Assembly: GCF_025643255.1 (NCBI RefSeq)
Contig: NZ_CP087112.1
Coordinates: forward strand, 3,286,001 to 3,350,000
From: Halomonas sp. 7T
GTDB lineage: Bacteria > Pseudomonadota > Gammaproteobacteria > Pseudomonadales > Halomonadaceae
Direction: 5' to 3'
Length of the DNA stretch: 64,000 bases
Below the pieces are notes generated by a model. The model was not told the origin of the DNA. It worked only from the letters and a program-made list of their open reading frames with translations, and did not search any database. The position numbers and the translations under genes were made by a program. Below are positions 34,748 through 53,896 of this stretch, piece after piece; within the stretch, counting starts at the first letter, position 1, and the number at the start of each line of letters is the position of its first letter.

Positions 34748-36427
34748 ATGCGACCAGCAGGCAGGGGTGAACTTGACTCGCTGTATTTCGATTATCCGCA
34801 TTTCCCCTTTGTATGTCCCGGTGAATTAAAAGGTGAGAAAAAACAGCACCGGGTTGCCATTGTGGGGGCAGGCCCGGTGGGCGTTGCCGCCGCGTTGGAG
34901 CTCGCGCGTCAAGGTGTTGCGTCAGTACTGCTTGATAATAAAGTGACCTTGAATGATGGCTCCAGAGCCATCTGTCTCTCCCGCCATAGCTTGGAAATAC
35001 TTCAGCAATTAGGTGTTGAGCAGCGCTTTATTAACAAAGCGCTTGGCTGGACATGTGGGCGCTCCTATTTCCATGATCAGGAAGTCTATCGCTTTGAGAT
35101 GCCGCATTCAGAGCACGAGCGCTTTCTGCCAATGTACAACCTACAGCAGCAGTATATTGAGCAGTTTCTGGCCGACAAAGCGATGGAAAGCCCGTTAATC
35201 GAAATGCGCTGGCAGCAGGCCGTTAGCGATGCTACACAAAGTGATACCGGCATAACGCTGCGCGTTTCCACTCCGAAGGGGGAGTATCAGCTGGAGGCTG
35301 ATTATCTGCTGGCGGCGGATGGTGGGCGCAGTAGCGTGCGCAAGTCGTTTAATCTGCCGCTGCACGGTGAGTCCTATGAAGGGCGCTATGTGATTGCTGA
35401 TGTACGCATGGCGTCTGACTTTCCGACCGAGCGCAGGGCGTTTTTCAGCCCTTCCGTAATGCCTGAATCTACTCTGCTGGTGCATAAACAGCCTGATGGT
35501 ATTTGGCGTATCGACTATCAACTGTTGCCAAATGAAGATCCCGAGCAGGCCGTTACCGAGAGCGCTATTCGTGAACGCGTTGGCATGATCATCGAGATGC
35601 TAGGCGAAGAGGATGAGTGGCAGCTTGAGTGGTGGAGCCTTTACAAAGCCTACACGCTGGCCCTGGACGATTATCGCCATGGCCGTGTGCTGTTTATTGG
35701 CGACAGTGCCCATTTAGTGCCCATTTTTGGGGTGCGTGGGCTGAATAATGGTCTGGCCGATGCGGTTAACGCTGCCTGGAAACTAGCCTGGGTACTGAAC
35801 GACAAGGCTTCCGAGAAGCTATTAGATAGCTATAGTCCAGAACGACGCGGTGCCACACTAGAAGTCTTCGCGAATGCCGGTAAGAGCACCCGCTTTATGA
35901 CCCCGCCCAGTCAAGGGTATCGATTGATGCGGGATGCCGCATTATCGTTGGCGCTACGTAACGACTACGCAAGCCTTTTTGCCGACCCTCGGCAAGTCAC
36001 GCCTTACACCTATGCTGAAAGTCCGGTGACGGCAGAGGATGACACCCGTTTTAGCGCAGGTCCAATACCTGGCGCACCGCTAATCAATCGCCGATTAGGC
36101 GACAACAGCTTCTTGCTCGATCACTTGGGAACGGGGTTTAACCTGCTGGTGTTTAGTGAAGATGGTAGCTTCACGCCTGAGCTACAGGCCGCTTTAGCTG
36201 ACCTTCAGAAACACTACAGTGGTTTGGTTGTGTTGGTAATTGCTCGCCATGCCAGCTCAGCGCCTTTCACCACCTTGATTGATCACCAGGGCGCCTGCTT
36301 TGATGGTTATGACGCCAGTTCTGGAAGCGCTTACTTAGTGCGGCCTGACCGTCATATCACCGCCCGCTGGAAAGTCCTGGAAGCGATTTCCCTTAACCGC
36401 GCCTTCAAGACAGCACTGGGAGAATAA
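34748..36427 (+). CDS. FAD-dependent aromatic monooxygenase, MhaA-like (module A)
   Basis: A 559-residue flavoprotein of the PHBH/MhpA class that hydroxylates an aromatic acid using NAD(P)H and oxygen. It has the FAD dinucleotide fold VGAGPVGVAAALELARQG (about 40-57), the second FAD motif FIGDSAHLVPIFGVRGLNNG (about 317-336) and a C-terminal thioredoxin-like domain (about 400-555) ending with YLVRPDRHITARWK. It is a paralogue of the protein at 46884-48614. The next gene overlaps by 1 bp and encodes a small DUF2783 protein, as in the two-component 3-hydroxyphenylacetate hydroxylase MhaAB of P. putida U. Substrate not proven. Confidence 0.85.
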   Translation: MRPAGRGELDSLYFDYPHFPFVCPGELKGEKKQHRVAIVGAGPVGVAAALELARQGVASVLLDNKVTLNDGSRAICLSRHSLEILQQLGVEQRFINKALGWTCGRSYFHDQEVYRFEMPHSEHERFLPMYNLQQQYIEQFLADKAMESPLIEMRWQQAVSDATQSDTGITLRVSTPKGEYQLEADYLLAADGGRSSVRKSFNLPLHGESYEGRYVIADVRMASDFPTERRAFFSPSVMPESTLLVHKQPDGIWRIDYQLLPNEDPEQAVTESAIRERVGMIIEMLGEEDEWQLEWWSLYKAYTLALDDYRHGRVLFIGDSAHLVPIFGVRGLNNGLADAVNAAWKLAWVLNDKASEKLLDSYSPERRGATLEVFANAGKSTRFMTPPSQGYRLMRDAALSLALRNDYASLFADPRQVTPYTYAESPVTAEDDTRFSAGPIPGAPLINRRLGDNSFLLDHLGTGFNLLVFSEDGSFTPELQAALADLQKHYSGLVVLVIARHASSAPFTTLIDHQGACFDGYDASSGSAYLVRPDRHITARWKVLEAISLNRAFKTALGE

Positions 36428-36669
36428 TGCGCATGACCGCGATATCGACACCCACCGTCTCTTCACAAGCCGCTTTACCGTTTGCCGACCTTGAACAGGT
36501 CTATGAACAGTTGGCTGTCACGCTGGATTCGGTACCTGAGGCACAGCACACGCTCTTGCTTGCCCAGCTGGCCCTGGCTCTTGCCCACCGAATTCCCGAT
36601 ATCGGTCAGGTAATGGAAGCGATTAATGAGGCGCGCGAGGGCATCCAAATGGATGAGGAGGGCAGTTAA
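36427..36669 (+). CDS. DUF2783-like small coupling protein (module A)
   Basis: An 80-residue protein beginning in a TAATG overlap with the monooxygenase stop. The core FADLEQVYEQLAVTLDSV, then HTLLLAQLALALAHRI and VMEAINEAR resembles the DUF2783 pattern (YEAL...ARLVLLLANHIGD...L.EA), though divergently. By analogy with MhaB of P. putida U it may be the small partner needed for productive hydroxylation rather than futile NADH oxidation. The family assignment rests on its position and the parallel with 46697-46897. Confidence 0.6.
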   Translation: MRMTAISTPTVSSQAALPFADLEQVYEQLAVTLDSVPEAQHTLLLAQLALALAHRIPDIGQVMEAINEAREGIQMDEEGS

Positions 36670-36692
36670 AAGCAGGTGAATAGGGAGAGCGA

Positions 36693-36715
36693 AGAGGGGA
36701 AAGCACTTCCCCTCT
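36693..36715. terminator. Hairpin between convergent genes
   Basis: A 9-bp stem (AGAGGGGAA with TTCCCCTCT) and a 5-nt loop in the 65-bp gap between the module A small protein and the orphan dctP. There is no real T-run on either strand, so termination is likely but not certain. Confidence 0.5.
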
Positions 36716-36734
36716 GTCGTCTAGAGCGGCTCAG

Positions 36735-37790
36735 TTAGTGACTAACAACACTCGCTTCAATACTTTCTTCAGCTGCCGCATGGGATAACTGTTCATGAAA
36801 GAAGGCAAGTGCTGCTGGCGCGTCAACATTGCGGTTCTTTACTGACTCACTCCAGTCATTCTGCAAGTTGCTAGCAACGCCACGTAGGTAATTAATGTCT
36901 TGTTCCGATGCTTGGGTAAAGGTTGCGCCATTTTCTTCACCAAACTCAACGCCGCGCTGGTCGGAAACATCCATCATATAGCCAAACAAGCGTGAAAGCC
37001 GCTCGCCCGATACGCTTTCAATCGCCGCGCGGTCTTCGTCCGAGACTTGCTCCCAGAACATCGGGTTCATCACAATCGCAAAGCTGCCGCGGTAGAAACC
37101 GCCGTCTACGGTCAGGGTATGCGGGGCTACTTCAACCACGCGGAAGCTGCGTAAGCTTTCAAGCGTTAGCATCGCACCGTCAACAACACCTTGAGAGGCC
37201 GCTTCGTAGGTACCTGTGGGCGGAATGGAGACACCGGTTACCGACATTGCCTCGGCTAAGCCACTCATTACACCGCCGCCAACACGCAGTCGTTTGCCAG
37301 CAAGCTCATCAATTGAGCTTACTTGATCACGGGTAAATATTTGGCCTGGGCCATGCACGCCCATCGCCACCACATCAACGCCACGATGCTCATTGGCTTG
37401 CTGCAAATACTCTTGATGGGTATGCCAATATGCAGCAGAAGCATCTTCTGAAGAGAACTCCTCGAACGTGGGAAATTCAGGCAGTTGCGTTGCTAGAAAA
37501 CGTCCCGCCATGTGGGCGTGAAAAATCCAGCTGGCATCCGCAATACCATCAGCAACGATCTCCATTTGTGCAGGAGGTGGCCCCATATCGTGCACCACTT
37601 CTACTGTCACACGGTCATCAGTGGCTTCTTCAATCCACGCCTTCCAGGTTGGCCAAACAATCGTATTCACACCGTGATTAGGCCCGCCCCAGGTGCTAAC
37701 GGTGATGGTTGCCTGGGCAAAAGAAGACATGCTGAACGCCATACTTGAAAAAGCAATGGCGCCCATGAGTAAGCGAGTGGGTTGTTTCAT
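36735..37790 (-). CDS. Orphan TRAP substrate-binding protein (DctP), module A
   Basis: Periplasmic binding protein of 351 residues with a signal peptide cleaved near MSSFAQA. It is a close paralogue of the binding protein at 50965-52035: both begin TITVSTWGGPNHG or TITVSTWAGPNHG, share NTIVWPTWKAWIEEAT and RLSRLFGYMMDVSD, and align without large gaps. No permease genes are adjacent, so it would have to use another DctQM, most likely that of system 3 (52066-53896). It is convergent with the MhaA-like module A. Confidence 0.9.
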   Translation of the reverse strand: MKQPTRLLMGAIAFSSMAFSMSSFAQATITVSTWGGPNHGVNTIVWPTWKAWIEEATDDRVTVEVVHDMGPPPAQMEIVADGIADASWIFHAHMAGRFLATQLPEFPTFEEFSSEDASAAYWHTHQEYLQQANEHRGVDVVAMGVHGPGQIFTRDQVSSIDELAGKRLRVGGGVMSGLAEAMSVTGVSIPPTGTYEAASQGVVDGAMLTLESLRSFRVVEVAPHTLTVDGGFYRGSFAIVMNPMFWEQVSDEDRAAIESVSGERLSRLFGYMMDVSDQRGVEFGEENGATFTQASEQDINYLRGVASNLQNDWSESVKNRNVDAPAALAFFHEQLSHAAAEESIEASVVSH

Positions 37791-37806
37791 GCTGAAACTC
37801 CAAAAC

Positions 37807-37953: not shown

Positions 37954-38025
37954 CTTGTTTTTAGACTCTGGGTATTACCTATAAAGCTATCTGTGCTTGG
38001 CCGTCATGAATTCGCTCGTTTAGCT

Positions 38026-38679: not shown

Positions 38680-41600
38680 ATGACCATGACCACCCCCTCA
38701 ATGGCTGAGCAGACGGGCTCTATTACCCAACCGCTCGATATTGCACTTGATGACTATCAACTGGCCGACCGCTACAGCCGTGGTGAAGGCCGTATTTTTC
38801 TCACCGGCACCCAGGCGTTGGTACGTATCGCCTTACGCCAAGCGGAGCTTGATCGCCGCGATGACCGCCACACGGCAGGGCTTATCAGCGGCTACCGTGG
38901 CTCGCCTTTGGGCGGTGTGGACCAAGAGATCTGGCGGGCAACAGCCGCCATGGAAGCGCATCACATCGATTTCGTGCCTGCCATCAACGAAGATTTGGCT
39001 GCCACCATGATGCTCGGTTGCCAGCAGGTAGAGACGGATCCTGAGCGACAGGTCGATGGTGTCTTCGGCATGTGGTACGGCAAAGGGCCTGGGGTTGATC
39101 GCGCGGGCGACGCATTAAAGCACGGCAATGCTTACGGCAGTTCGCCGACTGGCGGCGTGCTGGTGGTCGCGGGTGATGACCATGGGTGTGTGTCGTCCTC
39201 CATGCCACACCAGTCGGATGTCGCCTTTATGGCGTGGTTTATGCCGGTGGTGAGCCCTGCGTCTTTGGCGGAGTATGAACGCTTTGGGCTATGGGGTTAT
39301 GCACTGTCACGCTTCTCGGGTTGTTGGGTGGGGTTCAAAGCCGTGTCTGAAACCGTAGAGAGTGGTGCTTCAGTCGAGGTGCCTCCCTTGCCTGACTATA
39401 TAACGCCGGAATTCGATACGCCGGAAGGCGGGCTGCACTATCGCTGGCCTGACCTGCCGGGGCCGCAGCTAGAGACCCGCATTGAGCACAAGCTGGCCGC
39501 CGTGCAGGCATTTGCTACGGCCAACCCGATTGATCAGTATTTATTTCGCCAAGAACAGGCGACCTTTGGGCTGGTGACAACGGGCAAGGGACACCTGGAC
39601 TTGCTTGAGGCGCTGCGTTTGTTGGGGCTGGATGAAGCGAAGCTGCGTGAGTTAGGGGTAGAAATATACAAAGTCGGGATGGTGTGGCCGCTCCATCGTC
39701 CCGGCATTCTTGAGTTTATTCATGGCAAGCGTGAGGTGCTGGTCATTGAAGAGAAGCGCGGCATTATTGAAAGCCAGCTGAAAGAGTACATGTCGGAGCC
39801 CGATCACCCCGGTGAGGTCATCGTGACCGGCAAGCAGGATGAAACTGGCAAGCCGCTGATTCCTTATGTGGGAGAGCTAAGCCCGCGTCTCTTGGCAGGC
39901 TTCGTGGCAGAACGCCTAGCGCGTTTTTTCGAGATTGATTTTAGCGACAAGCTGGCAACGGTGGATGCGTGCCAAGCGGGCGTTAAGGAGCTCGGCGGTG
40001 TACGTCGCATGCCCTATTTCTGCTCCGGTTGCCCACACAACAGCTCGACCAAGGTGCCGGAAGGCAGTAAAGCCCTGGCGGGGATTGGTTGCCACTTTAT
40101 GGCCTCGTGGATGGACCGCAGTACTGAATCGTTAATTCAGATGGGTGGCGAAGGCGTTAACTGGGTGGGCAAGAGCCGCTTTACGGGTAACGGTCATATT
40201 TTCCAGAACTTGGGCGAAGGCACCTGGTTTCACTCGGGCTCCATGGCAGTGCGCCAGGCCGTAGCTGCCAACGTTAATATTACCTATAAAATTCTGTTCA
40301 ACGACGCGGTTGCCATGACGGGCGGCCAACCTGTGGACGGGCAAATCAACGTGCCCATGATTGCCCGACAATCTCTGGATGAAGGTGTTCGCCGGGTGAT
40401 GGTGGTCAGTGACGAGCCGGAGAAGTACCGGGGGCATGAAAAGGAGTTTCCTAAGCAGGTAACCTTCCACGGGCGCGAAGAGATGGACACGCTACAGCGT
40501 GAACTGCGCGAAATTCCTGGCTGCACCGTGTTGATTTATGACCAGGCATGCGCGGCTGAAAAACGCCGTCGGCGCAAGCGTGGATTGATGGAAGACCCTG
40601 CCCGCCGCGTGTTTATCAACCACCATGTCTGTGAGGGCTGTGGTGATTGCTCCGTACAGTCCAACTGTTTATCGGTGGTGCCTCGCGAGACCGAACTAGG
40701 TCGCAAGCGCAAAATCGATCAGTCGTCCTGCAACAAGGATATGTCCTGCGTCAGCGGTTTTTGCCCCAGTTTTGTCACTGTTGAAGGTGGCGGGCTGCGT
40801 AAAGGGCAAGGTGTCACGGCAGATAATGCCTTTTGGAAACGTATATCGCATTTGCCTAACCCCTCCATTGCCCCTTTGGCAGCCCCTTATGACTTGCTGG
40901 TGGGTGGCGTTGGCGGCACGGGTGTGGTGACGGTCGGGCAGCTGATCACCATGGCAGCACACCTGGAAGGCAAGGGCAGCAGCGTGCTCGACTTTATGGG
41001 CTTTGCGCAAAAAGGCGGGGCGGTACTTAGCTATGTTCGCTTAGCTGCACAGCCCAACGAGCTGAATCAGGTGCGCATCGAAGCCGGTCAGGCCGATGCG
41101 ATGATCGCTTGTGACATGGTGGTGGCTAGCTCCCAGAAAGCGCTGAACGTGCTGCAGCCGACCACGCGCATTGTGGCGAATTTAGCTGAGCTAGCCACGG
41201 CGGATTACGTTCTTTATCGCGATGCGGATATGCAGCCCAGCAAACGCCTTAACATGCTACGTGACGCGGTAGGCGAGGAGCGCTTTGCCTCGCTGGATGC
41301 CAATCGCCTGGCGGAACAGCTGCTAGGCGATACGGTGTTTTCCAATATGATGATGCTAGGGTTTGCTTGGCAGCAGGGACTGGTGCCGCTTTCTGAACCT
41401 GCGCTGCAGCGCGCCTTGGAGCTAAACGGCGTCGCCGTAGAAAAGAATCGTCAGGCATTTGCCTGGGGCCGCTTGGCAGCGGTAGAACCCGACTACCTCC
41501 AGCAGCACCTGGACACGATGCCGCTATCCGCGAATGCCACGCTGGACGAGGTGGTGGCGCGTAATAGTCGCCACCTGGAGCGCTATCAGAACCGTGCCTG

Positions 41601-42201
41601 GGCTGAGCGTTACGTTACTCAGGTGACCAAAGTGCGTGAAGCAGAAATAGCGCTAAAAGGCGGCCAGGCATTGAGTGAAGCTGTCGCCCATCAGCTCTAT
41701 CGTTTGATGGCGTATAAAGATGAGTATGAAGTGGCGCGGCTTTATACCCAGAGCGATTTTCTGGATGAGGTCAAAGCGACGTTCTCGGGTGATTACCGGC
41801 TAACCTTCCATTTGGCACCGCCGCTACTGGGGGGGCGTAAAGATGCGCAAGGGCGTCCGGTGAAGCGTCGTTTCGGCCCCTGGGTACTGAAGGCAATGGG
41901 CGCTCTGGCAAAGATGCGCGGTTTGCGCAACACGGCGCTTGACCCTTTCCGCTTCAGCGCTGATCGTAAGCTCGACCGCGCCTTATTGGCGGACTACGAA
42001 CAGCTTCTTGATGAGTTAGTGGCGCGTCTTGATGGCACGAATCACGCCACGGTCTTAGCGCTTGCTAAGCTGCCGGAAGAGATTCGTGGTTTCGGACCAG
42101 TCCGTGAAACTGCCGCTGAGAAAGCCAACGAGCGCCGCGAGACGTTGTTGAAGGAACTACGTGAAGGTCGCTCGAAGACCATCGCTGTCGAAGCCGCTTG
42201 A
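38680..42201 (+). CDS. Indolepyruvate ferredoxin oxidoreductase (fused alpha-gamma type)
   Basis: Thiamine-dependent enzyme that oxidatively decarboxylates arylpyruvates (indolepyruvate, phenylpyruvate, 4-hydroxyphenylpyruvate) to arylacetyl-CoA, passing electrons to ferredoxin. The 1173-residue fused form has an N-terminal pyrimidine-binding domain, a TPP-binding part (about 440-600; GIGCHFMASWMDR and FNDAVAMTGGQP), a cysteine-rich ferredoxin-like segment (about 645-700; CEGCGDCSVQSNC and CNKDMSCVSGFCP) and a C-terminal gamma domain (from about 740; GGVGGTGVVTVGQL). Phenylpyruvate would give phenylacetyl-CoA, the Paa pathway substrate encoded 12 kb downstream. Confidence 0.92.
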   Translation: MTMTTPSMAEQTGSITQPLDIALDDYQLADRYSRGEGRIFLTGTQALVRIALRQAELDRRDDRHTAGLISGYRGSPLGGVDQEIWRATAAMEAHHIDFVPAINEDLAATMMLGCQQVETDPERQVDGVFGMWYGKGPGVDRAGDALKHGNAYGSSPTGGVLVVAGDDHGCVSSSMPHQSDVAFMAWFMPVVSPASLAEYERFGLWGYALSRFSGCWVGFKAVSETVESGASVEVPPLPDYITPEFDTPEGGLHYRWPDLPGPQLETRIEHKLAAVQAFATANPIDQYLFRQEQATFGLVTTGKGHLDLLEALRLLGLDEAKLRELGVEIYKVGMVWPLHRPGILEFIHGKREVLVIEEKRGIIESQLKEYMSEPDHPGEVIVTGKQDETGKPLIPYVGELSPRLLAGFVAERLARFFEIDFSDKLATVDACQAGVKELGGVRRMPYFCSGCPHNSSTKVPEGSKALAGIGCHFMASWMDRSTESLIQMGGEGVNWVGKSRFTGNGHIFQNLGEGTWFHSGSMAVRQAVAANVNITYKILFNDAVAMTGGQPVDGQINVPMIARQSLDEGVRRVMVVSDEPEKYRGHEKEFPKQVTFHGREEMDTLQRELREIPGCTVLIYDQACAAEKRRRRKRGLMEDPARRVFINHHVCEGCGDCSVQSNCLSVVPRETELGRKRKIDQSSCNKDMSCVSGFCPSFVTVEGGGLRKGQGVTADNAFWKRISHLPNPSIAPLAAPYDLLVGGVGGTGVVTVGQLITMAAHLEGKGSSVLDFMGFAQKGGAVLSYVRLAAQPNELNQVRIEAGQADAMIACDMVVASSQKALNVLQPTTRIVANLAELATADYVLYRDADMQPSKRLNMLRDAVGEERFASLDANRLAEQLLGDTVFSNMMMLGFAWQQGLVPLSEPALQRALELNGVAVEKNRQAFAWGRLAAVEPDYLQQHLDTMPLSANATLDEVVARNSRHLERYQNRAWAERYVTQVTKVREAEIALKGGQALSEAVAHQLYRLMAYKDEYEVARLYTQSDFLDEVKATFSGDYRLTFHLAPPLLGGRKDAQGRPVKRRFGPWVLKAMGALAKMRGLRNTALDPFRFSADRKLDRALLADYEQLLDELVARLDGTNHATVLALAKLPEEIRGFGPVRETAAEKANERRETLLKELREGRSKTIAVEAA

Positions 42202-43548: not shown

Positions 43549-44193
43549 CTAGTTGGCGTCAGGCTGCGCTTCTGGGGCGGCTTTTGCAAAGGCTGGCAGT
43601 GACCGACAGTGGGCAGCGATACGCTGGATTGTCGGATACGCTGACATATCGCATTCAAAGCGTTCTGCGTTATACACCTGGGGAATCAAGCAGATATCCG
43701 CAAGCGTTGGTGTGTCGCCATGGCAAAAGTCACCGCTATTCATGTCAGTTGAGAGCGTTGTCTCCAATGCTGTGAAGCCCTCGGTAATCCAGTGGCGATA
43801 CCAGGCTAGCTTCGCCGCTTCATCCACCTCTAGCTCCCTGACGAGATACTTGAGCACCCGCAGGTTGTTGAGTGGGTGAATCTCGCAAGCCACCGACTGA
43901 GCAAGCGCACGAACTCTTGCGCGCGCTAACGCGTCAGCCGGCAGCAGTGCAGGCTCTGGGTGCGCCTCATCGAGATACTCACAGATTGCCAGCGACTGGT
44001 TAACCACGGTGCTATCGTCGAGCACTAGGCTAGGCACCATCCCCTGAGGGTTGCGCGCCAGCTGTTCGCCACCACGCTGCTCGCCTTTCACCAGATTAAC
44101 CGGGATTTGGTCATAGTCCAGGCCTTTCAGGTTCAAGGCGATGCGCACCCGGTAAGCAGCCGACGAGCGGAAATAGCCGTAAAGCGTCGTCAT
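43549..44193 (-). CDS. maiA: Maleylacetoacetate isomerase
   Basis: Zeta-class glutathione transferase that isomerises maleylacetoacetate to fumarylacetoacetate using glutathione, 214 residues. The diagnostic N-terminal motif SSAAYRVRIALNLKGL (about 10-25, the SSCxWRVRIAL-type zeta motif, with Ala for Cys) is clear, followed by VNLVKGEQ and NPQGMVPSLVLDD. The C-terminal helical domain has SVACEIHPLNNLRVL, also diagnostic. It lies 35 bp after fahA on the same strand. Loss of the zeta cysteine (SSAAYR) is seen in some bacterial enzymes and need not abolish activity. Confidence 0.94.
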   Translation of the reverse strand: MTTLYGYFRSSAAYRVRIALNLKGLDYDQIPVNLVKGEQRGGEQLARNPQGMVPSLVLDDSTVVNQSLAICEYLDEAHPEPALLPADALARARVRALAQSVACEIHPLNNLRVLKYLVRELEVDEAAKLAWYRHWITEGFTALETTLSTDMNSGDFCHGDTPTLADICLIPQVYNAERFECDMSAYPTIQRIAAHCRSLPAFAKAAPEAQPDAN

Positions 44194-44228: not shown

Positions 44229-45248
44229 TTATTTGGGCTGGTACTTCACGACTTGCTGATCGATGGTACCAAAGATGTTGTTGCCATCGCGGTCGAGCAT
44301 CTCGATGCGCACTCGGTCGCCAAAACGCATAAAAGGGGTTTTTACTTGGCCGTGGAGAATCTGCTCAACCATGCGTACTTCGGCCAAACAGCTATAGCCT
44401 ACGCCGCCGTCAGCCACTGGCTTTCCAGGACCGCCATCAGGGTCTGGGTTGGAAACAGTGCCCGAACCAATCACAGCGCCTGCGCCGAGAAAGCGAGTTT
44501 TCGCCGCATGGGCAACCAGCTGTGGGAAGCTGAAAATCATATCTGGCCCAGCTTCTGGCTCGCCAAACTTCTCATCATTTAGGTGCACGGTCAGCGGCAG
44601 GTGTACTTTTCCTTCTTGCCAAGCATCGCCCAGCTCATCCGGGGTCACCGCAATGGGCGAAAAAGAAGAGGCGGGCTTGGCTTGGAAAAAGCCGAAGCCC
44701 TTTGCGAGCTCACCTGGAATCAGGCCACGCAGGCTCACATCGTTAACCAGCATCACCAGCTTAATGTGCTTGGCGGCTTCCTCAGGGGTGACGGCCATCG
44801 GTACGTCATCGGTAATGACGGCGATTTCGCCCTCAAAATCAATACCATGCTCTTCGCTCACCGCTTCGATATCTTCGGTAGGTGCCAGGAAGCAGTCGCC
44901 ACCACCCTGGTACATGAGCGGATCAGTCCAAAAGGTTTCGGGCATCTCGGCATTACGTGCCTGGCGTACCAGTTGGACATGGTTTAGATAGGCGGAGCCA
45001 TCAGCCCACTGGTAGGCGCGCGGTAACGGGGAGTGCAGGGCACTCTGGTCAAGCGCAAAAGCACCTTCAGCGTCGCCACTGTTTAGTTGCGCATAGCGTG
45101 CTTCAAGCTGCGGGCTAACGGCTTCCCAGCTTTCAAGAGCCGACTGAAGTGTGGGCGCAATATCAGCAGCGCTTACCGCGCGGGAAAGGTCGCGAGAAAC
45201 AATGATGAGTTCTCCGTCGCGGCCCTTATTAAGTGTTGCAAGTTTCAT
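44229..45248 (-). CDS. fahA: Fumarylacetoacetate hydrolase (FAH family)
   Basis: Last enzyme of the homogentisate pathway: cleaves fumarylacetoacetate to fumarate and acetoacetate. It has 339 residues, the shorter bacterial type. The metal-binding core appears as DFEGEIAVIT (about 144-153), LVMLVNDVSLRG (about 171-182) and GSGTVSNPDPDGG. An AAGGA ribosome site precedes the ATG. It lies between hmgA (74 bp upstream) and maiA (35 bp downstream), which fixes its role. Confidence 0.93.
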   Translation of the reverse strand: MKLATLNKGRDGELIIVSRDLSRAVSAADIAPTLQSALESWEAVSPQLEARYAQLNSGDAEGAFALDQSALHSPLPRAYQWADGSAYLNHVQLVRQARNAEMPETFWTDPLMYQGGGDCFLAPTEDIEAVSEEHGIDFEGEIAVITDDVPMAVTPEEAAKHIKLVMLVNDVSLRGLIPGELAKGFGFFQAKPASSFSPIAVTPDELGDAWQEGKVHLPLTVHLNDEKFGEPEAGPDMIFSFPQLVAHAAKTRFLGAGAVIGSGTVSNPDPDGGPGKPVADGGVGYSCLAEVRMVEQILHGQVKTPFMRFGDRVRIEMLDRDGNNIFGTIDQQVVKYQPK

Positions 45249-45322: not shown

Positions 45323-46630
45323 TTAGGGCTTGTTTGGGTCGAAGTGCGAACGCAGCGTCGACCAAACATCCACATAGTCACGTTGGCGGAAGTCCGCCTC
45401 TAGTGCCGCAGGGGTCGGATGGAATAAGTAGCGGCTTTCAAACATGAAGGCCAGCGTGTCCCCTAGGAACTGAGGCTTCAGCTCAGCGTTGGAAGCTTTT
45501 TCAAAGGTTTCAGCATCCGGGCCATGGGGCGACATTGAGTTGTGCAGGCTGGCACCGCCTGGGGTGAAGCCTTCCGCTTTTGCATCGTACTCACCGTGGA
45601 TAAGCCCCATAAACTCGCTCATCAGGTTACGGTGGAACCAAGGCGGCCTAAAGGTGTTCTCGGCTACCATCCAGCGCGGTGGGAAGATAACAAAATCCAG
45701 ATTCGCCGTTCCCGGCGTATCGGAAGGTGACGTCAATACGGTAAAAATTGACGGGTCCGGATGGTCGAAGCTCACCGTATTGATGGTGTTAAAATTAGCG
45801 AGATTATATTTGTACGGTGCGCAGTTGCCGTGCCACGCCACCACATCTAACGGCGAATGGTTGAGTTTAGTTTCCCAGAAACGACCAGAGAACTTTGCGA
45901 CTAAGCGGTAGTCACCCTCTAGATATTCATAAGCCGCGACTGGGCTTTGGAAGTCACGCGGGTTTGCCAAACCATTCGCCCCAATGGGGCCGAGACCGGG
46001 TAGCTCTAACGGGCTGCCGTAGTTCTCGCAAATATACCCGCGTGCTGCGTCGACACCCTGCGCTTTACGCACTTGGAATTTCACGCCGCGGGGAATAACA
46101 GCAATTTCACCGTTATCAATCTCAAGTTCACCAAACTCGGTGCGCAGACGAATAGCACCCAACTGCGGAACGAAGAGCAGTTCGCCATCTGCGTTGTAGA
46201 AAAAACGCTCGGTCATGTCTTCATTGAACGTATAAACATGTACGCCCACGCCAGCTTGGGTGCCTGCATCTCCGTTGACCGCAATGGTGAATAAACCATC
46301 AATAAAGTCAGTCGGTGCATCCGGTATTGCAACGGGGTCCCAACGCATTTGGTTAGGGTCGGCTGCTGGGCGCTCTAATGGGGCGGTGTGTACGTTGTTA
46401 TTTTCTAGTGGCTGGTAAGCACTTTGAACCACCGAAGGGCGAATGCGGTAAAGCCAGCTACGGAAGTTCTGATGACGCGGTGCTGTAAATGCGGAGCCAG
46501 TAAGCTGTTCTGCATATAAACCGTAAGCGCACTTTTGCGGTGAGTTTTGCCCAATCGGTAGTGCCCCTGGCAGCGCTTCGGTTGAAAAGTGGTTATGAAA
46601 GCCGTTTTGATACTTTAATTGTTCAGTCAT
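45323..46630 (-). CDS. hmgA: Homogentisate 1,2-dioxygenase
   Basis: Iron-dependent ring-cleaving dioxygenase converting homogentisate to maleylacetoacetate, 435 residues, the usual bacterial length. It has typical N-terminal [18 protein letters not shown] (about 8-25) and the C-terminal active-site region [16 protein letters not shown] followed by [15 protein letters not shown], which carries the conserved histidines and glutamate. The CAGGAA ribosome site is well placed. It begins 66 bp after the DUF2783 gene with no terminator between, so the upstream monooxygenase and the hmg genes are probably one operon. Confidence 0.97.
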
Positions 46631-46696: not shown

Positions 46697-46897
46697 CTAT
46701 TGATCGCCATCACCCACCGCATAGGACATCGCTTCTTCCAGCACCGCCTGGTCGCCGATGTGGTTAGCCAGTAGCAAAATCAAGCGCGCATTGATGCGTT
46801 CGCTGTCGGCTTCGCTGCGGTCGCGGTGTAGAGCGGTGAGTGCCGCGTAAAAAGCATCCGGGTCAGTAAAGTTGGGATTTAATTCAAGCCTTGGCAT
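46697..46897 (-). CDS. DUF2783 small protein, MhaB-like coupling subunit (module B)
   Basis: A 66-residue protein. The frame runs to 46936, but ATG 46897 has an AGGAG ribosome site (46905-46909) and gives the DUF2783 start MPRLELNPNFTDPDAFY. The core ARLILLLANHIGDQAVLEEAM is the family signature. Its start overlaps the end of the monooxygenase gene by 14 bp. In P. putida U the similarly small MhaB is required with flavoprotein MhaA to hydroxylate 3-hydroxyphenylacetate to homogentisate; the neighbouring hmgA supports the same role here. Confidence 0.75.
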   Translation of the reverse strand: MPRLELNPNFTDPDAFYAALTALHRDRSEADSERINARLILLLANHIGDQAVLEEAMSYAVGDGDQ

Positions 46898-48614
46898 GGC
46901 AACGCTCCTGAAAGGTAGTGTCAGCGGTACCCGCAAGATAAACGCCCAGCGCGCGGTCTAATGCGTCTTCAACCTGGTGGGCAGTGACGGCGTGCCAGCG
47001 AGCAGTAACGTGCTGGTCAGGACGGATAAGGTATCCAGCCCCTGCTTTCAGGCCGTATCGCTGGGTGACGAGTTCTTCAACATCGTCCACCACGGTGGTG
47101 CGTGGTAGCGTGCTAAGCACCTGCGGCGTGGAGCCAACGATCACTAGGCTGATATCGGGGCGACGCTCTAGCAGAGTATCCAGGTCGTTCAACAAAGTAG
47201 CAGCGTATTGTTCATCAACGCGGCCATCGAGTAGCAGTGTAAACCCATTGCCAAACTGGTTGAGCAGCCAAGCGCTCTCTTCGCCTATTTGAATAGGAGC
47301 GTCTTTAATGGGACTGCCAGGGCGCAGCTCGCTTGGGCCACCGTCCACATCGGGCGTATTGAGCGGTGAGTGGTCATAGCGACACGGCATAGAGAGGCGG
47401 CCGCTGTTGACCAGGCTGCGTGCAAAGGGGTGTTTCTCGGCTAGTTCCAGCGTCACATCGCGGAACACGTGGCTGATGTGGCTCTTTGGGGTAATAAAGT
47501 CGGTGGCGCGGGTAGAGTTAAGAAGGTTTTCTGCCGCGCCGTGCTGGCGCTCAGTGTTATAGGTGGTCAAAAGCGATGCTGGCGCTTGCTGTTTGAGCAC
47601 TCGAGCAAGCTTCCAAGCCAGGTTATCCACGCCTTGCAGAGCGCCGTTGGCACCCCGGGCACCGAAGGGGGAAACCTGATGAGCCGCGTCGCCCATAAAT
47701 ATCACGCTGTTGTGAATAAAGTTATCCATCTTTCGGCAGCGGAAGGTGTAGACGCTGGCCCACTCAAGCTCGAACTCCACGTCTGGTCCAAGCATGGCTT
47801 GTACCCGTGGGCGAATGTTCTCTTCTTTTTTCTCTTCTTCCGGGTCAGCGTCCCAGCCCAGCTGGAAGTCGATACGCCACACATTATCGGGTTCTTTGTG
47901 CAGCAACACCGATTGATTGGGGTGGAAGGGTGGGTCAAACCAAAACCAGCGCTCTGTAGGGAAGTCTGCCTTCATCACCACATCGGCAATCAAGAAGCGG
48001 TCTTGGAATACCTGGCCTTTGCACTCAAGGCCCAACATGTCGCGGATTCGGCTGTTAGCGCCATCCGAAACAAGAAGATAGTCACAGGTCAGCTGATAAT
48101 CACCATCTTGAGTGGCGACTTTAATGGCGGTACGTTCTGGCTGAGCATCAACCTTGATAACGTCGTGTTTCCAGCGCAGGTCAATTTGTTCAGCAAAGTC
48201 GTGAGTTCGATTGACCAAAAACTCTTCAAAGTAATACTGCTGTAAATTAATAAAGGCCGGAATACGATGGCCGTCCTCGGGTAGCAGGTTGAAGTCGTAG
48301 ACTTCGCGGTCTTGGAAGAAGACGCGACCGTGCTGCCAAGTGACGCCTTTTTCAAGCATCGGCTCGACGCAGCCCAGGCGGTCTACAATTTCCAGTGAAC
48401 GCTTGGCAAAGCACAGCGCCCGGGAGCCCACGCTAACGGTGTTGTTGTCGTCAAGGACAATGGAGTGAATGCCCTGCTTAGCTAAATCAATAGCGGCGGC
48501 AAGGCCGCTGGGCCCGGCACCGACAATTACCACCGGGCAATGGCGCATTTCTTGTGCATCGAGTTCAGGCGGGCGTCGGTAAGGATAGACAGGATTTTTA
48601 TAGGTAGTTGGCAT
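46884..48614 (-). CDS. FAD-dependent aromatic hydroxylase, MhaA-like (module B)
   Basis: A 576-residue flavoprotein hydroxylase of the PHBH/MhpA class. FAD fold VVIVGAGPSGLAAAIDLAKQ (about 28-47), GD motif FMGDAAHQVSPFGARGANGA (about 325-344) and a C-terminal thioredoxin-like domain (about 430-570). A GGGGAG ribosome site precedes the ATG. The gene is followed by a DUF2783 gene and then hmgA, fahA and maiA. This order and size fit the 3-hydroxyphenylacetate 6-hydroxylase MhaA of P. putida U, which produces homogentisate. A related hydroxylase of another meta-hydroxylated arylalkanoate remains possible. Confidence 0.82.
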   Translation of the reverse strand: MPTTYKNPVYPYRRPPELDAQEMRHCPVVIVGAGPSGLAAAIDLAKQGIHSIVLDDNNTVSVGSRALCFAKRSLEIVDRLGCVEPMLEKGVTWQHGRVFFQDREVYDFNLLPEDGHRIPAFINLQQYYFEEFLVNRTHDFAEQIDLRWKHDVIKVDAQPERTAIKVATQDGDYQLTCDYLLVSDGANSRIRDMLGLECKGQVFQDRFLIADVVMKADFPTERWFWFDPPFHPNQSVLLHKEPDNVWRIDFQLGWDADPEEEKKEENIRPRVQAMLGPDVEFELEWASVYTFRCRKMDNFIHNSVIFMGDAAHQVSPFGARGANGALQGVDNLAWKLARVLKQQAPASLLTTYNTERQHGAAENLLNSTRATDFITPKSHISHVFRDVTLELAEKHPFARSLVNSGRLSMPCRYDHSPLNTPDVDGGPSELRPGSPIKDAPIQIGEESAWLLNQFGNGFTLLLDGRVDEQYAATLLNDLDTLLERRPDISLVIVGSTPQVLSTLPRTTVVDDVEELVTQRYGLKAGAGYLIRPDQHVTARWHAVTAHQVEDALDRALGVYLAGTADTTFQERCHAKA

Positions 48615-48690: not shown

Positions 48691-49659
48691 TTACTGATTT
48701 TCGACAGCATCCTGCAGCGAATGCCACATCGCGGTATCGCGTTCTGCCGTCCAAATGCGGGGGTCTGGGTATTCGCCGCCGGCTTCGTCATAGCAGCGAG
48801 TAATATCGAAAGGCACGCAGTGATCGAAGATGACCCAGTGGCCATACTTCGGCTTCAGTAATGCGTACGTTTCTGCGTAGCACTCGGAGAGCGATTTGCC
48901 CGCTGCCTTGCCGGCTTTGACGCTGCCGTACATATCGTTCAAGAAGTCGCGGGTGCCTTGAATGGCTTCCTGGCACTGTTCGGCAGTTTGCAGCGCATCG
49001 CCGCGACCGGGCACCAGCTTTTGAGGCTGCATGGCTTGCAGGCGGTCAAGCGTGGCCGGCCAGTACTCGTGGTAAGCGTCACCGGTATAAGGAGTGGCAC
49101 CATACTCAACGAGGTCACCGGCAAACATGATTTTTTCTTTCGGTAACCAGACGATGGTGTCGCCCTTGGTGTGACCACGGCCCAAGTGGATGATCTGTAC
49201 CTCGCGCTCACCCATGAAGACGGTTAGTTTTTCCTGGAAGACGATGGTTGGCCAAGTCAAACCAGGGACCGAATCGACGCCTTTAAACAGGCGCGGGAAG
49301 CGACCAACTTCTGATTCATAGTCTTGCTGGCCACGCTCTACAATCAGATCGTAGGTGTTCTGGCTGGCGTAGATATTCTCAGCATCGTACGCCGAAGCGC
49401 CAAGAACACGCACCGCGTGGTAGTGGCTCATGACCACATGTTTAATCGGCAGGTCAGTCACCTCGCGGATACGGCGGATGACATCCTGAGCCATGATGGG
49501 CGTTGCCTGGGTGTCGATAACCATTACGCTGTCATCGCCAATCACGATGCCGGTGTTGGGGTCGCCTTCAGCCGTGTAAGCGTAGAGCCCTTCTGCCAGC
49601 TTGGTGAAACTGATCTGTTTCTCTTCGGTATCGGCATGGGATGCGAATTTCTTGCTCAT
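48691..49659 (-). CDS. MBL-fold hydrolase-like protein with degenerate metal motif
   Basis: A 322-residue metallo-beta-lactamase-fold protein with no signal peptide. The usual HxHxDH motif reads HYHAVR (79-84): His79 and His81 are kept, but Asp83 and His84 are replaced by Val and Arg. Later ligands GRGHTKGD (His163) and AGDLV (Asp182) are present. I recall the same HYHAVRVLGA form in other proteobacterial members, so it may define a subfamily with one metal rather than a dead enzyme. It is the first gene of the probable MBL-hydroxylase-hmg operon; a thioesterase or lactonase-like role is only a guess. Confidence 0.82.
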   Translation of the reverse strand: MSKKFASHADTEEKQISFTKLAEGLYAYTAEGDPNTGIVIGDDSVMVIDTQATPIMAQDVIRRIREVTDLPIKHVVMSHYHAVRVLGASAYDAENIYASQNTYDLIVERGQQDYESEVGRFPRLFKGVDSVPGLTWPTIVFQEKLTVFMGEREVQIIHLGRGHTKGDTIVWLPKEKIMFAGDLVEYGATPYTGDAYHEYWPATLDRLQAMQPQKLVPGRGDALQTAEQCQEAIQGTRDFLNDMYGSVKAGKAAGKSLSECYAETYALLKPKYGHWVIFDHCVPFDITRCYDEAGGEYPDPRIWTAERDTAMWHSLQDAVENQ

Positions 49660-49727: not shown

Positions 49728-50114
49728 AATGTCCAGCATGCTGTAAGATCGTTAGGTTGTGTGCTGCAAGTTATTCGCAATAAATCTCAAATAAACAGCA
49801 ATTTATTGCAAAATAAGACCTAGGTCTAATAAACAAAATCTTTAAATTAGTTGCAAGAGAGATCATATGGCGGCAGTGTTTCATTTAGTATTAGTTTTAT
49901 AGAGGCTTGCTAATTTAACGATAAATAATGTCAGTGGCGTTTTTAGATGTGTTTGCCGTTATTTCGCCACTATTTCCGTCATTATGTCGCCAGGGGATCT
50001 TTCGAAAGGTGGGCTTAGTGTGTAATAGGTGCGTTGCTGGTGCTCATATTCCCAGCTATCGTGCTGTATTTTTGTTACTCCCCACCGATAAATGACGGCT
50101 CTAGGAGAAACACC

Positions 50115-50603
50115 ATGACGATGGATAAAGCGGGCAGCGAGTCATCCTCTCAATCTTCGGCCAGGGCAGAGTTAGACCTTAATCAGTTTCTACCCTATCA
50201 ACTGAATCGCTTAGCAGATCGGATCAGCCAAGCGCTTGAGGCACTTTATGCTGAGTCTTATCAGCTCAATATCGCGCAATGGCGCGTGCTTGCGTGGCTC
50301 AGCCACTGCGATGATCTAACGGCAAAGAAGGTCTGTGCCTATACCAATATGGATAAGGCGCGCGTGTCTCGGGCTATTCAGTCGCTAGAAGAGCGTGGGC
50401 TAATCAACCGTACGCCCTCACAGCAGGATCAGCGGTTACATGACTTACAACTAACGACAGCCGGACAAGCGTTACTCAATAAGCTAGTGCCCGAAGCCCA
50501 GGCGTGGGAAGCCGAACTAGTGTCGACCCTGAGCGTTGGTGAATACCGTGACCTACTTAATACAATGCGTAAGCTTGAACGGCAGTTAGAGAGGATCGGC
50601 TAA
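50115..50603 (+). CDS. MarR-family transcriptional regulator
   Basis: A 162-residue MarR regulator. The frame runs from 50034, but ATG 50115 follows AGGAGA (50103-50108) and is chosen. The winged helix (about 50-110) contains TAKKVCAYTNMDKARVSRAI and the wing region RTPSQQDQRLHDLQLT, with the DxR motif (DQR). It is divergent from the MBL-hydroxylase-hmg run and upstream of TRAP system 3. MarR proteins often release DNA on binding aromatic acids, so it is the best candidate controller of both flanking units. Confidence 0.9.
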   Translation: MTMDKAGSESSSQSSARAELDLNQFLPYQLNRLADRISQALEALYAESYQLNIAQWRVLAWLSHCDDLTAKKVCAYTNMDKARVSRAIQSLEERGLINRTPSQQDQRLHDLQLTTAGQALLNKLVPEAQAWEAELVSTLSVGEYRDLLNTMRKLERQLERIG

Positions 50604-50807: not shown

Positions 50808-50927
50808 ATACTTAAGTATCATCATCTATTAGTCGATGGGTCGTTGCGCGATCCACGTTTCTGCAGGCATTGTGATAAGTAACGTGATTCGAGTATTTTT
50901 TTTATTATAAAAATAAGGTATCACGTT
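50808..50927 (+). promoter_or_regulatory. Regulatory region of TRAP system 3 with palindromes
   Basis: ATACTTAAGTAT (50808-50819) is a perfect 12-bp palindrome. Its ACTTAAGTAT part recurs about 160 bp before the paralogous orphan dctP gene. AACGTGAT (50881-50888) and ATCACGTT (50920-50927) form an inverted repeat with a 31-bp A/T-rich centre that may hold the promoter. No gene is seen in the 361-bp gap. Confidence 0.45.
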
Positions 50928-50964
50928 TTGCGCTCCCAGTTCGCGACGACCAGAGGAAAGACAA

Positions 50965-52035
50965 ATGAACAAAACAACAAACCTGATGATTGGTGCTATC
51001 GCCGCCGCAACGCTAAGCACCTCTGCCTTAGCACAAACAACCATCACCGTGAGTACCTGGGCTGGCCCTAATCACGGCATCAACACCATCGTATGGCCAA
51101 CGTGGAAAGCGTGGATTGAAGAAGCCACGGAAGGACGCGTAACGGTAGACGTGATACATGATATGGGGCCTCCCGTTTCCCAAATGGAAATGGTCGCTGA
51201 TGGTATTGCTGATGCAACTTGGGTTTTCCACGGCTATAACACAGGCCGCTTTCAGCTAACCAAACTTCCAGAATTCCCCACCTTTCAAGAGTTTTCATCA
51301 GAAAATGCCTCCAGCGCTTACTGGCGCACTCACCAAGAATATTTGGCAGCCGCTGGCGAACACCGCGGCGTTGATGTAGTGGCTGCGGGTGTTCATGGTC
51401 CAGGCTGGATCTTCAGCAGCGAGCAGTACGACACCTTAGAAGACATGAAAGGCAAGCGAATTCGTGTGGGCGGCGGCGTAATGGGCGATCTCTCCAATGC
51501 CCTGGAGCTGACCGGCGTTGCACTACCGCCTACAGGCGTTTACGAAGCAGGCTCACAAGGTGTTATCGACGGTGCCATGCTGGTGCCTGAAGGGCTGCGC
51601 AGTTTCCGTGTCGCGGAGATTTTCCCCTACACCCTCAAAGTGGATGGTGGTTTCTATCGCGGTAGTTTCACTATCGTCGTTAATCCGATGATCTGGGATG
51701 AGATGTCGTCTGAGGACCGTGAAGCCGTCGAATCTGTCTCTGGTGAGCGTTTGTCACGCCTGTTCGGCTACATGATGGATGTCTCTGATGTGCGCGGTGT
51801 CGACTTTGCCGAAGAGCTTGGTCATACCTTTACTGAACTCGGTGACGAAGACCTTAATACCCTAAAAAGTATGAGCGACAGCATGATTGCTGAGTGGGCT
51901 GAGTCTGCTTCAGAAAACCGCAACGTGGACGCGATGGCCGCTATCGAATTTTATCGCGAGCAGCTTATCGCAGCAGCGGAAGAAGAGAGCGTCAGCAGCT
52001 TAGTACCTGCTGAATTAGTACCAGACGCAAACTAA
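50965..52035 (+). CDS. TRAP transporter substrate-binding protein (DctP), system 3
   Basis: Periplasmic binding protein, 356 residues, signal peptide cleaved near ALAQT. It leads a complete P-Q-M set. Conserved segments include DMKGKRIRVGGGVMGDL (about 154-170), the usual carboxylate-arginine region, and the paralogue-shared NTIVWPTWKAWIEEAT and GERLSRLFGYMMDVSD. It is closely related to the orphan at 36735-37790. Location beside the hydroxylase-homogentisate operon suggests an aromatic acid ligand; this is inference. Confidence 0.93.
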   Translation: MNKTTNLMIGAIAAATLSTSALAQTTITVSTWAGPNHGINTIVWPTWKAWIEEATEGRVTVDVIHDMGPPVSQMEMVADGIADATWVFHGYNTGRFQLTKLPEFPTFQEFSSENASSAYWRTHQEYLAAAGEHRGVDVVAAGVHGPGWIFSSEQYDTLEDMKGKRIRVGGGVMGDLSNALELTGVALPPTGVYEAGSQGVIDGAMLVPEGLRSFRVAEIFPYTLKVDGGFYRGSFTIVVNPMIWDEMSSEDREAVESVSGERLSRLFGYMMDVSDVRGVDFAEELGHTFTELGDEDLNTLKSMSDSMIAEWAESASENRNVDAMAAIEFYREQLIAAAEEESVSSLVPAELVPDAN

Positions 52036-52065
52036 GTTCCCACTAGCGCTGGACGGAGAGCGACC

Positions 52066-52608
52066 ATGCAAACCCAAATGGCACGTGCGACGCGCGTTAG
52101 TCGGGTTCTGCAGATGATGTTAGAGGGGGTGGCAGGCGCTACCCTCTTTGGCATGATGCTGCTGACCACTGCTGACGTAGGCGGCCGCTACTTTTTTAAT
52201 TCCCCGATTCTTGGTGCTGTTGAATTAACCCAGCTGATGCTAGCGGCGTTGGTGTTCCTATCGCTACCGGTCGTTTGTTGGCGTCAGGAGCATGTCAGTG
52301 TTGACCTGCTTGATGCTGTTTTTCCAGCAAGGCTTGTCTGGATACGTGAAGTGATCGTCAACCTGATCGTGACTGCTGCTCTCTGGGTGATGGCACAGCG
52401 GGTATGGTCGCTGGCAGAACGCGCGTTTTCTTGGGGAGATGTGACTGAGTTTCTTCGTATACCCCATGGCTATCTGATCGGTTTGATCGCCATCATGCTG
52501 GCGCTCTCAGCATTGCTGACCCTCATGCGAGCCGTTTTCTATTTGCTCGAAGGGCTGAAGGTAATTGAAAAAGGTGGCCCATTGAGCAAAGGAGAGCCCC
52601 ATGACTGA
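52066..52608 (+). CDS. TRAP transporter small permease (DctQ), system 3
   Basis: A 180-residue small membrane subunit with four hydrophobic segments (about 20-42, 55-75, 95-115 and 137-160) and the typical segment PILGAVELTQLMLAALVFLS. It starts 30 bp after dctP and overlaps dctM by 8 bp. Confidence 0.88.
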   Translation: MQTQMARATRVSRVLQMMLEGVAGATLFGMMLLTTADVGGRYFFNSPILGAVELTQLMLAALVFLSLPVVCWRQEHVSVDLLDAVFPARLVWIREVIVNLIVTAALWVMAQRVWSLAERAFSWGDVTEFLRIPHGYLIGLIAIMLALSALLTLMRAVFYLLEGLKVIEKGGPLSKGEPHD

Positions 52609-53896
52609 AGCGCTGTACGGTTTCGCTGTTCTATTGATATTAGTGTTTTTGCGGGTGCCTCTGGCGTTTGCAATGGGTATCGTTGGCTTTGCCGGGTTCT
52701 ATCTACTCACCGGTAACTGGAATGCGGCTGAGGCAATGGCGGCACGCCGGGTGGTAGATACCGCCATGGACTATGGCTTATCTGTTATTCCGTTGTTCAT
52801 TTTAATGGGCAACTTTGTGTCTCATGCAGGATTATCCGATGCCTTGTTTCGAGCATCGAATGGCTTTCTAGGGCATCGTAAGGGCGGCCAGGCGATGGCG
52901 ACGATCGTTGCTTGTGGCGGGTTTAGTGCAATCTGCGGATCGAGCTTAGCAACGTGCGCCACCATGGGCCGGGTTGCTATGCCGCAAATGCGCAAATATG
53001 GCTATAAAGATTCGCTGGCTGCCGCTTCCATTGCGGCGGGCGGTACGCTGGGTATCTTGATACCGCCAAGCGTCATGCTGGTGATTTACGGCATCCTAAC
53101 CGAAACAAGTATTCGTGAGCTGTTCGCGGCTGGCTTTATCCCCGGTATTCTTGGCATTTTTCTCTACATTGGCGCTATCAAATGGGTACTTTGGCGCGAC
53201 CCGAGCGCTGGCCCAGCGGCTGAAAGAGTGCCATGGGCAGAGCGGATCAAGGCGCTAAAAAGCGTAGGCAGTACGCTAGCGCTGTTTGTACTCGTGATTG
53301 GCGGTATTTACCTGGGCGTATTTACACCCACAGAAGCCGCCGGTATAGGGGCGATGGGCGCTTTCTTAATCGCGCTAATGCGCCGGGCGCTGACCCCTCA
53401 AGTGTTGATGAATGTATTGATGGACACCGTGCGCACGACAGCGATGCTGTTTGCAGTGGTGCTAACGGCGCTGATTTTCGCCAACTTTATCAACCGTGCA
53501 GGGCTGCCTGATGACTTGCTGGCACTGGTTAATGGTCTGAATGTGGCGCCTTTTGTGGTCATTCTGGTGATTATCGCGATCTATGTCGTACTGGGCTGTG
53601 TGTTTGAAAGTATGTCGATGCTGCTGCTAACAGTGCCGGTATTTTTCCCGGTAGTGGCGGGGCTGGGTTATGACTTGGTGTGGTTCGGCATACTGGTGGT
53701 TATCGTCATCGAGATCAGCCTGATAACGCCCCCTGTTGGTATGAACGTGTTTGTACTGCGAGCCGTATTGCCGGACGTATCCACAGGCACGATCTTCCGT
53801 GGCGTCACTCCTTTCTGGGTCGCGGGTACCATACGTGCGTTGTTGGTGCTTACCTTCCCCGCCATCGTGCTGTTCCTACCACGACTGCTTTATTAA
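52601..53896 (+). CDS. TRAP transporter large permease (DctM), system 3
   Basis: A 431-residue large membrane subunit with about twelve helices. Motifs include GGFSAICGSSLATCATMGRV (about 106-125), the AGGTLGILIPPSVMLVIYG region and GVFTPTEAAGIGAMGAFL. It is followed by a strong bidirectional terminator. It is the only DctQM pair close to the two related binding proteins (50965 and 36735), and may serve both. Confidence 0.93.
   Translation: MTEALYGFAVLLILVFLRVPLAFAMGIVGFAGFYLLTGNWNAAEAMAARRVVDTAMDYGLSVIPLFILMGNFVSHAGLSDALFRASNGFLGHRKGGQAMATIVACGGFSAICGSSLATCATMGRVAMPQMRKYGYKDSLAAASIAAGGTLGILIPPSVMLVIYGILTETSIRELFAAGFIPGILGIFLYIGAIKWVLWRDPSAGPAAERVPWAERIKALKSVGSTLALFVLVIGGIYLGVFTPTEAAGIGAMGAFLIALMRRALTPQVLMNVLMDTVRTTAMLFAVVLTALIFANFINRAGLPDDLLALVNGLNVAPFVVILVIIAIYVVLGCVFESMSMLLLTVPVFFPVVAGLGYDLVWFGILVVIVIEISLITPPVGMNVFVLRAVLPDVSTGTIFRGVTPFWVAGTIRALLVLTFPAIVLFLPRLLY

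Follow-up and report, generated by a model that had tools for sequence, protein, structure and literature searches.

Two long-separated flavoprotein hydroxylases and a possible homogentisate funnel for hydroxyphenylacetates in Halomonas sp. 7T

Hydroxylation of hydroxyphenylacetates at C6 is described as proceeding without rearrangement and hydroxylation at C1 as requiring one (PMC9338888, PMC10983741). In Pseudomonas putida U, the enzyme MhaAB, composed of MhaA (566 amino acids) and MhaB (60 amino acids), converts 3-hydroxyphenylacetate (3-HPA) to homogentisate (PMC3053370); 4-hydroxyphenylacetate (4-HPA) is reported as no substrate of P. putida MhaAB (PMC10983741), and strain U is said to break it down via another route (PMC3053370). 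For the 1-hydroxylase of Delftia acidovorans, a review describes a flavoprotein, HpaH, that produces metabolite Z, and HpaC, a "1,4-dihydroxyphenylacetate mutase", that produces homogentisate (PMC9338888). OhpA, a cytochrome P450 (P450) of the CYP116B type from Cupriavidus pinatubonensis, is a 5-hydroxylase of 2-hydroxyphenylacetate (2-HPA) accompanied by the orphan binding protein OhpT (PMC8449657), and a Rhodococcus relative is reported to turn 2-HPA into homogentisate (PMC11889516). Here we describe a window of 64,000 nucleotides (C1:3286001-3350000) from the 3.63 Mb genome of Halomonas sp. 7T. It encodes two flavin adenine dinucleotide (FAD) monooxygenases, which we call HydA (module A) and HydB (module B), and two solute-binding proteins of the tripartite ATP-independent periplasmic (TRAP) type, called DctP-A and DctP-B in the same way. 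The genes named in an initial annotation of the window lie where it placed them (Table 1).

HydA and HydB are paralogues, as had been annotated (37% identity over 553 amino acids, E 1e-119), and no other protein of the genome exceeds the cut-off of NF006002/PRK08132. For a maximum likelihood tree, 146 proteins were reduced at 85% identity to 76 representatives, with 3-kb loci set aside (L174 and L074 sit on long branches, and L070 and L074 have an odd composition). In this tree a 100/100 branch separates 56 HydA-type from 20 HydB-type rows, and alpha-, beta- and gammaproteobacteria are present in both clades. Twelve positions are fixed differently between the two types. HydA and HydB are long-separated sister enzymes: unrelated clades had been named as grounds for giving up the initial annotation, and the clades proved to be separate and old but related. 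Two of the twelve fixed differences form a pair that may mark specificity, namely the Pro and Val that follow the GD motif in HydA-type proteins (HydA 325, 329) and are Ser and Ala in HydB-type proteins (HydB 315, 319).

The two genes also keep company. Among 201 genomes of the family, drawn evenly from a larger group, all 29 that hold hydA hold hydB as well, and in 26 of the 27 genomes with both on one contig they lie at most 32 kb apart. The initial annotation had suggested that module A may make a different product because it lies away from the ring-cleavage genes (the end of hydA is about 9 kb from hmgA); given this co-existence, usually at short distance, a shared product looks likelier.

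The best 120 of 7589 matches (8000 candidates scored) contain no record named MhaA. Several Pseudomonas HydA-type proteins have exactly the length of MhaA, 566 amino acids (others have 564-571), and the partner in locus L093 has 60; such proteins share the 100/100 clade of HydA. The Pseudomonas protein L089, taken as a proxy for strain U, is 35-40% identical to 31 HydB-type proteins and 40-100% identical to 114 HydA-type proteins, including 43-46% for the 21 from Halomonadaceae. The MhaA of LB400 is reported to be 47% identical to MhaA (PMC3053370), a value that would agree with the HydA-type range, provided that L089 represents strain U.

The small proteins encoded next to the two hydroxylases are related, as the initial annotation had claimed. 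The module B protein clearly passes the gathering cut-off of DUF2783 (PF10932); it probably begins with the ATG at 46897, giving 66 amino acids, and the TTG at 46936 in the list of open reading frames is an unlikely start. The module A protein has no Pfam match at E 0.001 and misses the DUF2783 cut-off (16.1 bits, E 0.0097, versus 25 bits). Its orthologues P0141 (26.6 bits) and P0149 (25.2 bits) pass that cut-off, and a profile-profile comparison of 112 distinct A-type with 29 distinct B-type partners, selected automatically as the short reading frame adjoining the end of the hydroxylase gene, gave E 1.7e-8. As a control, 2240 shuffled A-type sequences gave no match to the B-type profile. By these profiles, the small protein of module A is a divergent member of DUF2783, homologous to the HydB partner.

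The stable core of module A consists of the LuxR-type regulator, HydA and the small protein. HydA adjoins the small protein in 29 of the 30 loci retrieved by a search with the latter (window genome included), and the LuxR gene adjoins hydA in all 19 hydA-holding regions among 20 examined. In Leisingera, Agrobacterium and Marinobacterium, too, HydA-type genes have LuxR-type matches (31-36%) next to them. The arrangement resembles that of MhaAB, in that a flavoprotein of about 560 amino acids is directly followed by the gene of a partner of 60-80 amino acids, with homogentisate as the proposed outlet. It differs from the MhaAB-type loci of Pseudomonas by its divergent regulator and by having no MFS transporter gene behind it, unlike L093. 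Module B lies beside a MarR-type regulator instead, so that the modules have different regulators, as first annotated.

The stable core of module B is formed by a protein of the metallo-beta-lactamase (MBL) fold, HydB and DUF2783. HydB was found in 38 of the 201 family genomes and the MBL protein in the identical 38, with 57-124 bp between the two genes in 37 genomes and 1.9 kb in one; the family genomes being related, tests of co-occurrence overstate independence. In a further set of 28 genomes, picked from 80 HydA-type loci and thus HydA-holding by choice, the MBL protein is present in all 17 genomes with a HydB-type protein (at least 49% identity) and in 1 of the 11 without. These 11 include all six Pseudomonas genomes searched (the 80 loci held 8 of Pseudomonas), which have the HydA type only and no MBL protein. 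Two genomes of the same genus (L058:2144-4387 and L059:1694-4051) retain the TRAP genes but have lost both MBL and HydB from the interval that separates marR and hmgA; residues 40-66 of DUF2783 are left in one genome and none in the other.

Hydrolases of the MBL fold usually carry the metal motif HxHxDH, and B1 lactamases HxHxDR. The MBL protein has neither: in all 22 aligned relatives the corresponding position reads HYHAVR, with H163, D182 and H280 retained. Its solved relative 8d2z (417 bits) is labelled merely as a superfamily protein, and the MBL protein itself falls under the cut-off of each NCBIfam family among the matches listed (25 of 53).

Some loci combine these genes in other ways. 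A Hylemonella metagenome-assembled genome (L098:5506-15231) has MBL, HydB, DUF2783, a HydA-type protein, a VOC-family protein, fahA and TRAP genes in a single stretch. A small VOC-family protein and fahA lie beside HydA- or HydB-type genes, with no hmgA match in the stretch, in L077, L098, L105, L117, L122, L125, L126, L135 and L137, and in L074 and L156 (Acinetobacter). The VOC-family protein beside fahA may stand in for one of the enzymes that degrade homogentisate.

We propose, with confidence evenly poised between acceptance and rejection, that the window encodes a homogentisate funnel in which HydA would be an MhaA-like 3-HPA 6-hydroxylase and HydB an HpaH-like 4-HPA 1-hydroxylase, with import by DctP-B and DctQM. 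The substrates, the order of steps, the role of the MBL protein and the sharing of DctPs are predictions from sequence. Module A (LuxR, HydA and the small DUF2783-like protein, which would serve in coupling) would hydroxylate 3-HPA at C6 directly to homogentisate. HydB and its DUF2783 partner would convert 4-HPA to a C1-hydroxylated quinol, and the MBL protein would act on this quinol or aid the shift of its side chain to give homogentisate. HmgA, MaiA and FahA would complete the pathway, and hppD, the second source of homogentisate in the region, would feed the same pool from tyrosine. The acid would enter through DctP-B and DctQM, with DctP-A as an extra binding protein that probably uses the same DctQM.

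The assignment of 4-HPA to HydB and of 3-HPA to HydA draws on the linkage of the MBL protein to HydB and not to HydA, which would suit a reaction that needs a second, rearranging step. It is also suggested by the reported lack of 4-HPA use by MhaAB, the HydA-only Pseudomonas genomes and the presence of HydB and MBL in D. acidovorans. In this species, HydB, DUF2783 and MBL are found together (L169). HpaH/HpaC (EC 1.14.13.18) is a two-part FAD enzyme that yields homogentisate, whereas the genes conserved here number three. Halomonas titanicae is reported to make homogentisate from 4-HPA and not to metabolise 2- or 3-HPA, with mention of unpublished hpaH/C genes (PMC8058095). Unless this range is due to uptake or regulation, it suggests that the conversions of 3-HPA and 4-HPA are separable in the family. 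Two specificities, as the initial annotation had supposed, are probable.

Several observations weigh against the funnel. The assignments of HydA and HydB were made from length, organism and linkage, and not by comparison with the sequences of MhaA or HpaH. HpaH might be of the HydA type, since D. acidovorans holds both types: HydA-type, HydB-type and MBL proteins are all present in the three Delftia genomes searched, and D. acidovorans NBRC 14950 has all of them. HpaC itself may be the MBL protein, DUF2783 or something else. The review PMC9338888 counts P. putida among the C1-hydroxylators, which clashes with our HydA-only reading of Pseudomonas, and it presents the HPPD and 1-hydroxylase routes as unreported together, while the window genome would have both. 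The MhaA of LB400 is described as raised on 3-HPA and on 4-HPA alike (PMC10983741). Three large HydB genomes of the same genus also carry the P450 described below, which would predict use of 2-HPA. Concerning the linkage, genome G221 has the MBL protein without a clear HydB, and there is no MBL gene within the 1.5-kb flanks of seven HydB loci (L159, L161, L162, L166, L172, L186 and L187); the six genomes of these loci still hold one, at a distance of 3.4 kb in one genome and on a different contig in each of the others.

Two other distributions of substrates were considered. Both hydroxylases could be MhaAB-like 3-HPA 6-hydroxylases that differ in affinity or regulation, with the MBL protein acting elsewhere, e.g., in opening hydroxyphenylacetate lactones. 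The shared NF006002 family, the DUF2783-type partners on both sides and the hmg linkage of both are compatible with this, but we consider it unlikely: twelve positions are fixed differently, the MBL protein is tied to one clade alone, and the constant co-existence of hydA with hydB speaks against redundancy. Alternatively, the roles could be reversed, HydB being the 3-HPA hydroxylase, while HydA would either hydroxylate 4-HPA at C1 or act on a different acid (e.g., a hydroxyphenylpropionate or methoxylated phenylacetate). HydB is indeed nearer to hmgA than HydA, several HydA-type loci have no hmgA match in the stretch examined, and the listing of P. putida as a C1-hydroxylator (PMC9338888) would, with HydA-only Pseudomonas, point the same way. 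Yet P. putida MhaAB is reported without 4-HPA use (PMC10983741), and the additional protein that a rearrangement would call for goes with HydB and not with HydA, so that we find the reversal distinctly unlikely.

The initial annotation had read both modules as one import-plus-hydroxylation unit that was duplicated. The binding proteins are paralogous, as it claimed, but DctP-A and DctP-B are 65% identical over 349 amino acids, far more than the 37% of the hydroxylases. In a tree of 37 DctP rows (36 different, from fetched loci, out of 76 family copies; L035_18620 and L059_285, whose loci end early, were labelled by hand, L081 and L070 sit on long branches, and bootstrap values had yet to stabilise), DctP-A and four relatives form a 100/100 clade nested among the permease-linked rows. 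Two of its five loci (this genome and G138) have hydA at most 4.5 kb away, and the remaining three are near DUF6455, without hydA; a HydA-specific DctP was rejected on this basis. DctP-A is no conserved partner of HydA; within module A its gene is present, as annotated, but it is convergent with hydA and outside the hydA operon. In 12 of the 29 hydA genomes, the start of a DctP of the wider group is no more than 5 kb from hydA. Of the eight such DctPs that were read, DctP-A accounts for two (this genome and G138), and six belong to a pair with a P450. Duplication of one import-plus-hydroxylation module followed by divergence in this lineage is therefore very improbable: although hydroxylases, small proteins and DctPs are all paralogous, the split of the hydroxylases into two old clades is far older than that of the DctPs, the parts are poorly linked, and most of the DctPs read near hydA belong to the P450 pair.

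Scoring the best 10 DctP and the best 8 DctM candidates per genome, we found 76 DctPs (at least 57% identity) in 40 family genomes, 34 of which hold two or three. DctM of this type is present exactly once in 30 of these 34 genomes, twice in two, and was not found in two; in the window genome, DctM is the single match of its type. Because most genomes with several DctPs have one DctM, the extra DctPs probably share a single permease. Of the 76 DctPs, 66 have their start no more than 20 kb away from HydA or HydB. The nearest solved chain to DctP-B is 4p56 (157 bits). The DctPs resemble TarPQM of Rhodopseudomonas palustris, as described, in being of the TRAP type and in the predicted uptake of aromatic acids, and differ in having several paralogues per DctM, near different oxygenases. 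A third DctP of the window (23462-24547) was rejected as a member of the group (29-31% over just 112-116 amino acids).

In 21 loci of relatives, only 63-167 bp separate a P450-reductase-ferredoxin fusion and a DctP of this group (e.g., L048:1793-4180; nearest solved chains 6kbh, 6laa and P450 RhF 6ro8). In the DctP tree, the P450-linked rows lie across a 99/100 branch from the side of DctP-A and, under the chosen outgroup, do not form a single clade. The pairs of fusion and orphan DctP (L048:1793-5316 and, similarly, L039, L040, L045, L047, L049, L052-L056 and L060-L069) adjoin hppD, hmg or hydA genes in several loci. They look like a TRAP version of OhpA-OhpT, i.e., an oxygenase with an orphan binding protein that would feed homogentisate, with a TRAP-type DctP in place of OhpT, which is of the tripartite tricarboxylate transporter (TTT) type. 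A plasmid of Diaphorobacter carries, one after the other, genes for a P450 fusion, a TTT binding protein, a HydA-type enzyme and a small protein. No P450 was found in the window genome, and a P450 was thus rejected as a part of its modules.

Table 1. Features of the window discussed in the text. Families of LuxR, MarR, MBL, hmgA, fahA, maiA (glutathione S-transferase (GST) fold) and dctQ are from Pfam or NCBIfam.
Feature	Position	Strand	Evidence
hppD, 4-hydroxyphenylpyruvate dioxygenase	27967..29136	-	TIGR01263 391 bits
DUF6455 protein	33201..33725	-	PF20056 26.3 bits, cut-off 23.7
LuxR-type (GerE HTH) regulator, divergent from hydA	33800..34585	-	PF00196 35.9 bits
HydA, FAD monooxygenase, HydA-type clade	34748..36427	+	NF006002 608 bits, cut-off 416; tree
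Small HydA partner, divergent DUF2783	36427..36669 (start 36427 or 36433)	+	
DctP-A, orphan TRAP solute-binding protein	36735..37790	-	PF03480 73.6 bits
DUF6537/POR fusion protein	38680-42201		
maiA, maleylacetoacetate isomerase	43549..44193	-	GST fold and position
fahA, fumarylacetoacetase	44229..45248	-	PF01557, PF18288
hmgA, homogentisate 1,2-dioxygenase	45323..46630	-	TIGR01015 677 bits, cut-off 511
DUF2783 partner of HydB	46697..46897	-	PF10932 89.9 bits, cut-off 25
HydB, FAD monooxygenase, HydB-type clade	46884..48614	-	NF006002 799 bits, cut-off 416; tree
MBL-fold protein, HYHAVR at usual metal motif	48691..49659	-	PF00753 56 bits
MarR-type regulator, true start perhaps further downstream	50034..50603	+	PF12802 55.7 bits
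DctP-B, TRAP solute-binding protein with own permease	50965..52035	+	PF03480 71.7 bits
DctQ, small permease	52066..52608	+	PF04290 79.8 bits
DctM, large permease	52601..53896	+	Position; match to annotated large permease of L072

The region also holds paa genes, a symporter of the sodium:neurotransmitter type and a sigma-54 activator with ACT and PAS domains, which we take to be TyrR-like; the DUF6537/POR fusion is presumably IorAB. The closest named relatives of HydA and of its small partner are from Vreelandella rituensis (84%) and Halomonas qaidamensis (93%), respectively. DUF6455 proteins are often found next to the gene cluster and recur beside its orphan DctPs (L055-L059, L063-L067 and L069), and the copy in the window has a cysteine-rich C-terminal part. 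A separate TRAP system lies beside an RpiR-type regulator at 22392-27124; it combines a more distantly related DctP with a DctM and an Asp/Glu/hydantoin racemase.

The 4-HPA 1-hydroxylase has been under study since 1975. According to a 2022 review, plant constructs with hpaH and hpaC gave no homogentisate and another sequence is perhaps needed, and unpublished Escherichia coli clones from Ruegeria pomeroyi and H. olivaria gave none either (PMC9338888). As the conserved unit has three genes, expression of two would leave one out, whether HpaC is the MBL protein or DUF2783. This leads to a wider proposal, which we put forward tentatively and regard as possible though doubtful. The 4-HPA 1-hydroxylase would have three components (HydB, DUF2783 for coupling and the MBL protein as the mutase from quinol to homogentisate), which would explain the failure of two genes. 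Halomonadaceae would also use isomer-specific oxygenases (the P450 for 2-HPA, HydA for 3-HPA and HydB for 4-HPA), with paralogous DctPs served by one DctQM pair. The three-gene unit names candidates for the missing part of a long-unsolved enzyme and, if the proposal is true, would give a role to DUF2783 and to the MBL family of 8d2z, while the locus offers a case of several TRAP binding proteins that probably work with one permease.

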